A stretch of DNA of 63,037 nt from a candidate division WOR-3 bacterium (GTDB taxonomy: Bacteria; Hydrothermota; Hydrothermia; Hydrothermales; JAJRUZ01): contig JBDRZP010000015.1 of assembly GCA_039804025.1 (NCBI GenBank), positions 1 through 63,037 of the forward strand, read 5' to 3'. The notes beneath the pieces are model-generated. The model made no database searches. It was not told the DNA's origin and was given only the letters and a program-made list of their open reading frames with translations. The translations under genes were made by a program, and so were the position numbers. Each line of letters starts with the position of its first letter. Positions within the stretch are counted from its first letter, which is position 1. Below, piece by piece: positions 3,054-54,958 of this stretch.

Positions 3054-3350
3054 ATGAAAATAAAATTTATTGACAGGTGTATAATAATTATGCTTGCCTC
3101 TAAAAAAATTCATGGTTATTATCTTTATAGAGAATTTAAAGATGCAGGATTTGATATATCCATGGTTAATTTTTATAAAAAATTAAAAAAACTTGAAAAT
3201 ATGGGTCTTATAAGTTCAGAATGGAGAATAGTAAATGGAAGACCCAGAAAAGTTTATTACCTTACTGAAAAAGGGGAAAAAAAACTTAAAGCTTGTAAGG
3301 AAAATTTAAAAAAATTTTTATTTAAAATAAAGGGTTCAATTCCCTTTTAA
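3054..3350 (+). CDS. PadR-like winged-helix transcriptional regulator
   Basis: A 98-aa DNA-binding protein. Residues 10-80 form a winged helix: helix region LASKKIHGYYLYREF, recognition region VNFYKKLKKLENMGLI, and wing NGRPRKVYYLTEKGEKKL, a typical PadR family wing. It lacks the long C-terminal PadR dimer domain, so it is a short-form protein. It is directly followed by the disulfide oxidoreductase gene 16 bases downstream, which may be in the same transcript. The target is unknown. Confidence 0.75.
   Translation: MKIKFIDRCIIIMLASKKIHGYYLYREFKDAGFDISMVNFYKKLKKLENMGLISSEWRIVNGRPRKVYYLTEKGEKKLKACKENLKKFLFKIKGSIPF
3329..3347 (+). promoter_or_regulatory. T-loop-like hairpin before the oxidoreductase gene
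   Basis: AAAGGG-TTCAATT-CCCTTT forms a perfect 6-bp stem with a 7-base loop. It overlaps the end of the PadR-like gene and lies 20 bases before the ATG at 3367. The loop resembles the TTCNAAT loop of other leader hairpins in this window. No convincing promoter lies just upstream, so this copy could be operon-internal or chance. Confidence 0.4.
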
Positions 3351-4475: not shown

Positions 4476-4497
4476 TTTTTCTATTAGAAGAGAAAAA
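4476..4497 (-). promoter_or_regulatory. Leader hairpin with TTCTAAT loop (weak member)
   Basis: On the minus strand TTTTTCT-CTTCTAAT-AGAAAAA gives a 7-bp stem with an 8-base loop that contains TTCTAAT. This is the same heptamer as the loops before metK and before the gene ending at 43744. It lies about 30 bases before the PCC-domain gene. The GG/CC closure seen in the others is missing, so membership is uncertain. Confidence 0.35.
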
Positions 4498-7758: not shown

Positions 7759-8822
7759 ATAAAAGGGCTCTTGTTCTATCTGATGCTTCATCTACCCATA
7801 CTTGGAACTGGATAGAAGGTTATAAATCTCTTGGCTATAAAGTTTACCTTTTATCCTTTGAAGAACCCCTTTTAAATACAGATAGTTTGGAGGATTTTAT
7901 TAAAATTAATTCAAGATTTAAACCCTCTTTCCCAAGATACCTTTCAGGAGCAAATGTGGTAAAAAATTTTATACATAAAATAAACCCTGATATAATCTTT
8001 GCTCATTTTATACCAAATTACGGATTTCTATCATACCTTCAGGGAGAAAAACCTTTTGTTCTTTTTTGTTGGGGTAGTGATCTTATAAAAGTTGCTTTTA
8101 AATCATTTATACATAAATTAATTTCAAAAAGAATTTTTAATAAAGCAAAACTAATAGTAGTTGATGCTAAATTTATGAAAGAAATAATTGTAACTAAATT
8201 CAAAATAAATTCAGAAAAAATTATAATAATACCTTTTGGTGTAAATAGAGAATTAAGAGAAAGAGGGAAAAATATTAAAAAAGATGATAAAAGAACTATC
8301 CTTTTTACAAATAGAAAGCTGGAAAGAATTTATAATCCCTTTGTAATTATAGATGCCCTTTCAAAAATTCAAAACAAGAATTTTAAAATTATATGGATAG
8401 CAAGGGGTTCTCTTGAAAAAAAGGTAAAGGAAATGGTATATAGAAAGGGAATCTTCGATAAGGTTGAATTTCTTGAATTTCAGGAAAGAGAAAATCTATA
8501 TAAATTGCTTGAAGAGTCTGATATATATTTATCCTCATCCCTCTATGACGGGACAAGTGTTTCATTACTTGAAGCAATGTGTTTCGGTCTTTTTCCTGTA
8601 GTTTCTGATATTCTTGGAAACAGGGAATGGATTCTTGATGGTGTGAACGGTTTTCTCTTTGATCCTTTAAACTCAGAAGAACTCAGTAAAAAAATAAAAG
8701 AAGCTATTGATAATAAAAACTTAAGAATTAAAGCTGGCGAAATAAACAAAAATATTATAGAAATGAAAGCAAACTGGGAAGATAATTTAAAGAAGTTTTA
8801 TGATAAAATAAAAAATATATGA
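7755..8822 (+). CDS. Glycosyltransferase, GT4-like
   Basis: A 355-aa GT-B fold transferase, probably acting on a surface polysaccharide or lipid acceptor. The N-terminal domain opens ALVLSDASSTHTWNWIEGYK. The C-terminal donor-binding domain has the E-x7-E type motif in DGTSVSLLEAMCFGLFPVVS (about 263-282), preceded by LYKLLEESDIYLSSS. The start overlaps the purL stop (ATGA), and the stop overlaps ftsK in the same way. This gives tight coupling with functionally unrelated genes, as often seen in compact genomes. Donor and acceptor are unknown. Confidence 0.85.
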   Translation: MNKRALVLSDASSTHTWNWIEGYKSLGYKVYLLSFEEPLLNTDSLEDFIKINSRFKPSFPRYLSGANVVKNFIHKINPDIIFAHFIPNYGFLSYLQGEKPFVLFCWGSDLIKVAFKSFIHKLISKRIFNKAKLIVVDAKFMKEIIVTKFKINSEKIIIIPFGVNRELRERGKNIKKDDKRTILFTNRKLERIYNPFVIIDALSKIQNKNFKIIWIARGSLEKKVKEMVYRKGIFDKVEFLEFQERENLYKLLEESDIYLSSSLYDGTSVSLLEAMCFGLFPVVSDILGNREWILDGVNGFLFDPLNSEELSKKIKEAIDNKNLRIKAGEINKNIIEMKANWEDNLKKFYDKIKNI

Positions 8823-24913: not shown

Positions 24914-24936
24914 TTTAAGGTTCAAATCCCGTTAAA
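24914..24936 (+). promoter_or_regulatory. 5'-leader T-loop-like hairpin before frr
   Basis: TTTAA-GG-TTCAAAT-CC-cg-TTAAA: a closing GG/CC, a 7-base loop TTCAAAT, a 2-base bulge and an outer TTTAA/TTAAA stem. The core GGTTCAAATCC is identical to the T-arm core of the tRNA-Arg gene at 33733. It sits at about +1 to +20 of the predicted transcript and 17 bases before the frr ATG. Confidence 0.6.
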
Positions 24937-28129: not shown

Positions 28130-28142
28130 GGGATTAGAACCC
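28130..28142 (-). promoter_or_regulatory. 5'-leader T-loop-like hairpin before metK
   Basis: On the minus strand GGG-TTCTAAT-CCC forms a 3-bp GC stem with a 7-base loop. Flanking A and T runs can extend the stem past one mismatch. It lies about 8 bases after the predicted transcription start and 25 bases before the metK TTG. Confidence 0.6.
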
Positions 28143-33628: not shown

Positions 33629-33649
33629 TTAAAAAAGTTAATTAATAAG

Positions 33650-33662
33650 GGATTTGGACCCT
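33650..33662 (-). promoter_or_regulatory. 5'-leader T-loop-like hairpin before sdhA
   Basis: Minus strand: (A)GGG-TCCAAAT-CCC(T) with a 4-bp stem and a 7-base loop. The second loop base is C instead of T. It lies about 8 bases after the predicted start and 22 bases before the sdhA ATG. Confidence 0.5.
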
Positions 33663-33732: not shown

Positions 33733-33808
33733 AACCCCCGGCGGGATTTGAACCCGCAACCTCCTGGTCCGAAGCCAGGCGCTCTCTATCCTGTTGAGCT
33801 ACGGGGGC
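33733..33808 (-). tRNA. tRNA-Arg (anticodon TCG)
   Basis: A 76-base minus-strand cloverleaf. The acceptor GCCCCCG pairs with CGGGGGT (one G-T end pair). The anticodon loop CTTCGGA on stem CCTGG/CCAGG gives anticodon TCG for arginine. The T-arm is GCGGGTTCAAATCCCGC. CCA is not encoded. It lies four bases downstream of tRNA-His and is probably on the same primary transcript. Confidence 0.94.
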
Positions 33809-33889: not shown

Positions 33890-33918
33890 TTGATTTTCTA
33901 TTTATTTAATTATAAAAT
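33890..33918 (+). promoter_or_regulatory. tatA promoter, divergent from the tRNA promoter
   Basis: TTGATT (33890-33895), a 17-base spacer, and TAAAAT (33913-33918). A second TATAAT follows at 33918-33923. It overlaps the -10 of the minus-strand tRNA promoter, giving a compact divergent control region. Confidence 0.55.
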
Positions 33919-33936
33919 ATAATATCTTTATTTTTA

Positions 33937-33955
33937 AAAAGGTTCAAATCCTTTT
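33937..33955 (+). promoter_or_regulatory. 5'-leader T-loop-like hairpin before tatA
   Basis: AAAAGG-TTCAAAT-CCTTTT: a perfect 6-bp stem with a 7-base loop, with core GGTTCAAATCC as in the T-arm of the adjacent tRNA-Arg gene. It is about 12 bases after the predicted start and 15 bases before the tatA ATG. A GGGAG ribosome site follows the hairpin. Confidence 0.65.
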
Positions 33956-33970
33956 AAAAGGGAGAAAAAA

Positions 33971-34171
33971 ATGAATATAGGTTTCCAAGAAATATTATTA
34001 ATTTTTTTAATTATTTTACTTCTCTTCGGGGCTAAAAAATTACCTGAACTTGCAAGAGGTCTTGGAACCGCTTTAAAGGAGTTTAGAAAAGCCTTAAGAG
34101 AAACTGAAGATTCTATTAAAGAAATAAAAGAAGATACTGAAAAAAATACTAAGGAAGAAAAGAAAATTTAA
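33971..34171 (+). CDS. tatA: Sec-independent translocase TatA
   Basis: A pore-forming subunit for export of folded proteins. A 66-aa protein: one N-terminal helix (FQEILLIFLIILLLFGAKKL), the FGAKKLPELARGLG hinge and amphipathic helix, then an acidic/basic tail. The Phe-Gly at the hinge is conserved. No tatB or tatC is beside it. It is convergent with the acyl-CoA synthetase gene, whose stop is one base away. Confidence 0.94.
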   Translation: MNIGFQEILLIFLIILLLFGAKKLPELARGLGTALKEFRKALRETEDSIKEIKEDTEKNTKEEKKI

Positions 34172-41236: not shown

Positions 41237-41252
41237 AAAGTATTCGAACTTT
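41237..41252 (-). promoter_or_regulatory. 5'-leader hairpin with TTCGAAT before the metzincin-like gene
   Basis: Minus strand AAAGT-TCGAAT-ACTTT: a 5-bp stem; the loop region contains TTCGAAT, the classic tRNA T-loop. GG/CC closure is absent. It begins about five bases after the predicted start and lies 35 bases before the ATG. Confidence 0.45.
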
Positions 41253-43767: not shown

Positions 43768-43786
43768 GTAAGGATTAGAACCATAC
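43768..43786 (-). promoter_or_regulatory. 5'-leader T-loop-like hairpin
   Basis: Minus strand GTA-T-GG-TTCTAAT-CC-T-TAC: GG/CC closure, one T-T mismatch, then three outer pairs. The loop heptamer is the same as in the metK leader. It lies 24 bases before the ATG of the gene ending at 43744. Confidence 0.6.
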
Positions 43787-48461: not shown

Positions 48462-48968
48462 TTACACCATTAAAGTTTTGATAGGGATTGAACCTTTTTT
48501 AAATATAAGGTATAAAACAGTTAAAAAAAGAAAGAAACTTAAAAATAAAGGTATTAAAAAATATAAAAATACATTTAAAAGTATAGGGAACAAAGGCTTG
48601 AACTTTATAAAGAAGAAAAGTAATTTTTCCAATAAATCTTTTATGTTAATTATTGAAAGCAAAAAATTTATAAAAAGGGTGATAAAAATATTTTTGATTA
48701 TAAAAAAGAAAAAATTAATTAATAAGGAAAACGATAACATATAAAGAGAGAGTGTTTTAACAAAAACTTTTTCAAATCTGATTCTTTTTTTAATAGCAAG
48801 AAAAACACCTTTATCCGGCTCTAAACTTTTTAAATCTTCAAAACTCCTGTGTAAAAAATCTGAAATATTAAAAAAGGATTTACAGAGACTACAACTATAG
48901 ATATGCTTCCAATCCTCTTTTTCAAGAGTTTCTTTTAAAATCCATTGATTTAATCTTTCACATTCCAT
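48462..48968 (-). CDS. Zinc-finger membrane protein, putative anti-sigma factor
   Basis: A 168-aa protein. The N-terminal 35 residues carry a Cys near the start and the zinc motif HIYSCSLC (H-x3-C-x2-C), as in ZAS-type anti-sigma factors. Residues 75-165 form two or three transmembrane helices in an extremely Phe/Leu/Ile-rich stretch. It lies two genes upstream of an ECF sigma factor on the same strand. Anti-sigma function is inferred from motif and neighbourhood. Confidence 0.65.
   Translation of the reverse strand: MECERLNQWILKETLEKEDWKHIYSCSLCKSFFNISDFLHRSFEDLKSLEPDKGVFLAIKKRIRFEKVFVKTLSLYMLSFSLLINFFFFIIKNIFITLFINFLLSIINIKDLLEKLLFFFIKFKPLFPILLNVFLYFLIPLFLSFFLFLTVLYLIFKKGSIPIKTLMV
48483..48495 (-). 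promoter_or_regulatory. T-loop-like hairpin before the bactofilin-like gene
   Basis: Minus strand AGG-TTCAATC-CCT: a 3-bp stem and a 7-base loop, inside the last codons of the zinc-finger gene and 24 bases before the next ATG. A weak TATATT lies nine bases upstream. Confidence 0.4.
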
Positions 48969-54947: not shown

Positions 54948-54958
54948 GGGTTTGAACC
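54948..54958 (-). promoter_or_regulatory. 5'-leader T-loop-like hairpin before the lipoprotein-secretin operon
   Basis: Minus strand GG-TTCAAAC-CC, extendable by A/T pairs after a T-T mismatch. It is about 10 bases after the predicted start of a near-consensus promoter and about 22 bases before the GTG start. Confidence 0.55.

Follow-up and report, generated by a model that had tools for sequence, protein, structure and literature searches.

A tRNA T-arm-like hairpin at a set distance upstream of start codons in one WOR-3 family: a candidate translation-initiation element

Leader hairpins in the 63-kb window

The window, by which we mean the whole 63-kb stretch of DNA that was analysed, is contig C15 of a 2.12-Mb WOR-3 MAG (G000), and several of its genes are preceded by short hairpins that resemble the T-arm of a tRNA. 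In the leader of tatA, the product of which matches the Pfam family TatA_B_E (4.6e-20), the hairpin AGGTTCAAATCCT (33940..33952, plus strand) stands 19 nt before ATG 33971 and is a covariance-model hit of 29.7 bits. The corresponding hairpin of frr, GGTTCAAATCC (24919..24929, plus strand), lies 23 nt before ATG 24953 (RRF in Pfam, 5.1e-64), and that of metK, GGGTTCTAATCCC (28130..28142, minus strand), lies 25 nt before TTG 28105 (S-AdoMet_synt in Pfam) and has U at position 57, which is a purine in tRNAs. Upstream of sdhA, which encodes a FAD_binding_2/Succ_DH_flav_C protein according to Pfam, the hairpin GGGTCCAAATCCC (33649..33661, minus strand) is found 21 nt before ATG 33628, with C in place of U55; the sdhA ortholog of another genus (L031, upstream of 3001) is preceded by GGTCCGATTCC, which has C55 too but differs at positions 57 and 59. 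A further hairpin, GGTTCTAATCC (43772..43782, minus strand), is located 27 nt before ATG 43744 of a gene for a 219-aa protein with no Pfam match, and GGTTCAAACCC (54948..54958, minus strand) is located 22 nt before GTG 54925 of the gene for a probable lipoprotein, VKRILVLLMTIMFFYSC. We note that this GTG is more likely to be the start of the lipoprotein gene than the listed ATG 54937 (minus strand), because a GGAGG sequence and the hairpin spacing both indicate the GTG; the spacing rule would in this way also affect gene calling. Two more hairpins are situated at operon junctions, within the 3' end of the upstream gene: GGGTTCAATTCCC (3332..3344, plus strand), inside ORF 3054-3350 and 23 nt before ATG 3367 of a gene for a thioredoxin-like protein, and AGGTTCAATCCCT (48483..48495, minus strand), inside ORF 48462-48968 and 24 nt before ATG 48459.

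The original prediction had listed ten such sites, eight of which (those at 3329, 24914, 28130, 33650, 33937, 43768, 48483, and 54948) fit one element. The remaining two do not belong to it: the sequence at 4476 (CTTCTAATAG) is a misfit, and that at 41237 (AAAG-TTCGAATA-CTTT) has an 8-nt loop. The identity noted between the core of some hairpins and the T-arm core of the tRNA-Arg gene (33744..33754, minus strand) is correct; the latter is a real tRNA counterpart and served as a reference outside the leader set. Matches to the strict pattern GGTTCNANYCC, the T-arms of tRNA genes included, number 10 in the window, where shuffled sequence gives 0.55 on average. Rfam and ARAGORN together give three tRNAs in the whole window and none at the leader sites and, as nothing outside the hairpin is conserved either, a tRNA or tRNA-derived gene (RF00005) was rejected as an identity for the element. 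Rfam also returned no riboswitch or T-box match in the window; the element is thus no described Rfam family, and a T-box riboswitch, with its stem I, its specifier, and its antiterminator, was rejected on this ground.

With regard to the SdhA protein itself, it shares 85% identity with its counterpart in the MAG "candidate division WOR-3 bacterium Dive96_bin10.253", and the SdhA proteins of two archaeal MAGs (L034 and L035) are 64-65% identical to that of the WOR-3 bacterium, which possibly reflects gene transfer between archaea and the latter.

Form, abundance, and range of the element

The consensus of the leader sites, N-G-G-U-U-C-N-A-N-Y-C-C-N', describes a 3-bp hairpin bearing the 7-nt T-loop of tRNAs, i.e. 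a miniature T-arm of 2-3 base pairs with G53-C61 as the closing pair and U54-U55-C56-N-A58-N-Y as the loop. Enrichment upstream of start codons was seen for 7-nt loops only, and the enriched loops were of the form TTC-N-A-N-Y. A mismatch scan of the sites showed G53, A58, and C61 to be invariant and U54, U55, C56, and the outer G-C pair to vary rarely; in a scan that permitted the variant, U55 was replaced by C in 9 of 169 leader sites. Position 57 was a pyrimidine in 26 of the 169 leader sites and a purine in all 22 tRNA T-loops compared. In a set of 81 sites conforming to GTTCNANNC, the first pair outside G53-C61 was formed in every case (77 G-C, 2 A-T, and 2 C-G) and the second in 61 cases compared with 43 expected (p<0.0005), while pairing further out was at background. 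Double-sided changes in the stem outnumbered those in shuffles by 57 to 30 (0/500 shuffles reached the observed value). No conserved sequence or pairing was found in the flanks of the hairpin and, because nothing outside it is conserved, it has no D-arm partner. The bare hairpins fold only weakly, with a median of -2.9 kcal/mol at 37 °C and 0 at 65 °C, and this weak stability at 65 °C suggests that the hairpin is stabilised by its partner or by modification of the T-loop.

A longer form was observed in the ndk leader (~7797-7807, plus strand, in L148 of G000:C14) and that of its ortholog in G030, of the same genus, in which the T-loop sits atop a stem of ~9-10 bp (AAGGGGAGG-TTCAATG-CCTCCCCTT). 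T-rich sequence follows this hairpin, which may double as a terminator for the gene upstream.

The statistics on abundance and position were drawn from 861 kb of G000, 400 kb of G030 (same genus as G000), 566 kb of G028 (another genus of the same family), and 360 kb of G027 (same order). In the whole of G000, the pattern GGTTCNAAYCC occurs 123 times and the reversed pattern twice; because the tRNAs number 47, over half of these matches lie outside tRNA T-arms. The recurrent leader hairpin is thus real and more extensive than was originally claimed, with an excess of ~40- to 60-fold over the control. The 861 kb of G000 contain 108 non-tRNA strict sites, 81 of which precede a start codon by 10-40 nt on the sense strand and 2 of which do so on the antisense strand; of the rest, 16 are intragenic and 9 are placed otherwise. 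These figures bear out the expected enrichment upstream of genes and, together with the stem covariation, the proposal of an RNA-level element with a constant loop, a variable stem, and a fixed strand. About one tenth of the sampled genes carry the hairpin, a share somewhat inflated by sampling, because about half of the G000 stretches and the later G028 stretches were picked around known hits; the first contiguous 463 kb of G000, which include the window, show the same pattern. The genes served, named from Pfam matches in the window and from the N-terminal sequence, without a family search, outside it, form a functional mixture in which much core machinery is represented (rpsO, rpmF, rpsT, dnaA, dnaN, ftsZ, groES, and dnaK). 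A signal-peptide regulon was rejected: the difference of 47% versus 28% in G000 (p=4e-4) was not significant in G028 and G030 and is not explanatory.

The hairpin is conserved across genera, as had been anticipated for orthologous leaders. All 12 orthologs compared in G028 have retained it (12 of 12, Fisher 4e-14) at 72% median protein identity and with leaders that are largely unalignable; their hairpins show changes in loop and stem, and the spacing is held within 15-34 nt. In G030, 18 of 19 orthologs keep it, and the single apparent loss is a start miscall, the hairpin being present in that leader. Further, a covariance model trained on 87 leader hairpins gave at least 20 hits at E<0.1 in ~270 kb of G028 outside the training set and none at that threshold in 360 kb of G027, in which T-arm-led genes amount to 0 of 341 and Shine-Dalgarno (SD) sequences are commoner in most gap classes. 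When the motif was searched for together with an ATG at 17-28 nt, the four genomes of the family gave 154, 105, 139, and 190 hits, 143 other genomes of the phylum gave 3 to ~32 (mostly tRNA genes followed by an ATG among the places listed), and 23 further genomes, mostly from other phyla, gave 6-39, with the top count in a 9-Mb genome. The element is therefore restricted to one WOR-3 family, and the ~165 other genomes have counts at the level of tRNAs. Two scans of viral contigs produced no convincing T-arm-led phage, as the hits resemble phage tRNA T-arms or chance matches. We also considered that the matches are chance occurrences or debris of tRNA genes, which do contribute part of the raw matches. 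This explanation is ruled out because orthologs hold the hairpin in a conserved position, across genera and with changed flanks; it also fails to account for the excess over the control, for single hairpins with no other tRNA part conserved, and for their absence from G027.

Position relative to promoters and start codons

The end of the hairpin and the start codon are 18-29 nt apart, with a mode of 20-24 nt, and the distance is 24 nt in genes with an SD sequence and 21 nt in genes without one (p=5e-5). The promoter situation was examined at 125 sites from G000 and G030, which are close relatives, so that the sites are not fully independent. Fifty of these are free-standing sites that follow a promoter, the -10 box of which precedes the start codon by 35-65 nt; a -10 box was found within 35 nt of the hairpin in 44 of the 50 compared with 16 of 50 in the control. 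Another 47 are operon-type sites, which lie directly behind or within the 3' end of the upstream gene and have a promoter signal equal to background. The remark in the original prediction that, where a promoter can be read, the hairpin begins ~1-12 nt past the predicted transcription start thus applies to some of the sites only. Because the hairpin-start spacing is the same at promoter-linked and promoter-less operon-junction sites, we conclude that the anchor of the hairpin is the start codon and not the transcription start, and that its positioning is independent of promoters.

These findings bear on two explanations that do not involve translation. First, the hairpin could be an mRNA stability or processing element that protects the 5' end or provides a cleavage site separating operon transcripts. 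The predicted -10 boxes shortly before the free-standing sites agree with the former role and the operon sites, often close behind the upstream stop codon, with the latter. However, neither role accounts for the 18-29 nt spacing, a cap makes no sense within operons, and a cleavage site is redundant right after a promoter; we therefore regard this explanation as distinctly unlikely. In particular, a general role as a 5'-end stability cap, as once proposed, is contradicted by the 47 of 125 sites behind or inside an upstream gene, and the nuclease role proposed alongside it is less likely because the free-standing sites are already near the predicted 5' end. Second, palindromic GG...CC arms and the proximity of many sites to promoters are what a dyad operator recognised in DNA by a transcription factor would show, but such an operator is very improbable given the strand bias (81 versus 2), the asymmetric loop matching the T-loop core, the fixed distance to the start codon, and the existence of promoter-less operon-junction sites.

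Among same-strand genes with gaps of 40-100 nt, 18-48% have a T-arm; the proportion is 1-3% where a gene overlaps or adjoins its upstream neighbour, an arrangement in which translational coupling is to be expected. Further, 36-42% of divergent first genes in G000, G028, G030, and G027 have a TATAAT-like -10 box 3-11 nt (mostly 5-8 nt) before the start codon, which implies that they are expressed as leaderless mRNAs. With ~40% of the divergent first genes of G000, this resembles the leaderless mRNAs of Deinococcus-Thermus, in which the -10 box adjoins the ORF (PMC12340547), whereas the -10 box of T-arm genes is 35-65 nt upstream of the start. Leaderless-type starts are also common in G027, the outgroup without T-arms, and the T-arm genes appear as the leadered counterpart of the leaderless-type first genes. 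SD sequences occur in 35% of T-arm genes and 29% of other genes, a difference that is not significant; because T-arm genes make no less use of the SD sequence than other genes do, the hairpin is not a simple gene-by-gene substitute for the SD sequence.

A candidate role in translation initiation and its relation to known systems

In bacteria, translation starts are known to be marked mainly by SD pairing, by the lack of a leader, or by leaders that are A/U-rich or bind S1. The mRNA exits a ribosome positioned on a start codon ~15-20 nt upstream, which would place the hairpin at this exit: with its 3' end 18-29 nt upstream, it would lie just beyond the point where the mRNA leaves a ribosome that is set to begin at the start codon. 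We infer that the hairpin acts in translation, enhancing it by way of a binding partner, and consider it, with a probability of roughly 0.6, to be a cis-acting translation-initiation element. Either the ribosome or a T-loop-binding protein attached to the initiation complex may recognise the folded T-loop, which could as a docking handle help to position the ribosome on messages that have a leader and on operon-internal ones. More tentatively, and at somewhat under even odds, the element would be a new kind of start signal, i.e. a genome-wide mRNA mimic of the T-arm whose three-dimensional T-loop is read by the ribosome or an initiation factor and that evolved in one WOR-3 family beside leaderless and SD-led initiation.

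A T-loop-binding protein, as proposed originally, is a possible receptor. In a rival explanation, the hairpin would be an operator for a T-loop-binding translational regulator (TruB, TrmFO, TrmI, or another binder), which perhaps modifies it and represses or activates a regulon. TruB and TrmFO are encoded in the genome, and the loop fits the codes of T-loop writers, GUUYRANYC for TruB (PMC7912444) and GUUCNANNC for TRMT6/61A (PMC11549392). Most sites conform to the TruB/Pus4 code (53-GUUYRANYC-61), the exceptions being those with a pyrimidine at 57 (26/169) or C55 (9/169), which count against a regulator; as C55 is moreover kept across genera at sdhA, modification at 55 is not essential at every site. 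Further, pairing above expectation comprises G53-C61 and the next two pairs, so that covariation spans 3 bp and not the 5 bp reportedly needed by the modification enzymes (PMC7912444), and the functional mixture of T-arm genes, with core machinery among them, is unlike a regulon. We therefore hold a regulator of this kind to be unlikely.

A search for the receptor of the proposed initiation element gave no lead, which counts against this reading, as does the weak folding of the isolated hairpins. TruB is present as a single copy and TrmFO is ordinary, providing no copy-number lead. In 16S rRNA, the anti-SD sequence is intact (tail GGATCACCTCCTTT) and the complement of the motif, GGATTTGAACC, is absent; base pairing with 16S rRNA was therefore rejected. 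The stretch of 23S rRNA that was aligned around the L1 stalk showed no obvious change. There is no expansion of PUA proteins and no consistent extra tRNA_bind or PUA protein. A stand-alone tRNA_bind protein of 113-117 aa (Trbp111/CsaA-like) was observed at G000:C1:53431-53718 and G028:C30:34221-34508; it was rejected as the receptor of the family, as it was not seen in G029 or G030 (nor in the outgroup G027). Separately, we note that near-5' parts of the 16S rRNA of G000 (L190, G000:C3:13282-14834) read like another lineage (e.g. GTGCCTAATGCATGCAAGTCGAGCG), while G030, G028, and G027 mutually agree at these stretches; the 16S sequence of G000 is possibly an assembly chimera.

The element shares features with other known systems as well. 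Like the SD sequence, it would be a short cis-acting signal in genome-wide use that precedes the start codon by a set distance; unlike it, the T-arm has no complementarity to 16S rRNA, lies farther upstream (18-29 nt), and is a folded hairpin, and the two coexist in about one third of T-arm genes. Like yjdF and tRNA-like leaders, it is an RNA of tRNA-like form that precedes a start codon, and in the favoured reading it would act in the manner of such leaders, pared down to the T-arm. The precedent is that translation in vitro rose 2-6.3 fold when tRNAs or tRNA-like leaders were placed upstream of the SD sequence; the yjdF aptamer, when grafted, also raises in vitro translation, and in its folded state it binds 70S ribosomes with nanomolar affinity (PMC9142559). 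However, yjdF is a single ligand-responsive, tRNA-sized aptamer with a D-loop/T-loop elbow, whereas the WOR-3 element is a 3-bp T-arm only, occurs in more than 100 leaders per genome, and has no D-arm and no ligand pocket that we could see; with unconserved flanks and no Rfam riboswitch match in the window, nothing of a yjdF-type elbow or aptamer junction was found. Finally, it resembles the mRNA hairpins modified by TRUB1/Pus4 and TRMT6/61A in eukaryotes, which share the local code and a short stem-loop (PMC11549392); the eukaryotic sites are rare, scattered, and not tied to start codons, whereas the WOR-3 sites occur densely, keep a fixed position, and tolerate C55. No genome-wide T-arm start element was found described in the open-access literature, and novelty is provisional, as subscription papers were outside the scope of the search.

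The element is compact enough for cell-free testing. If the proposed role is true, a T-loop would be usable as a portable docking handle in mRNA, and bacteria of this WOR-3 family would have a further start signal in the form of a small folded RNA, derived from tRNA and held at a fixed distance from the start codon, in about one tenth of their genes.
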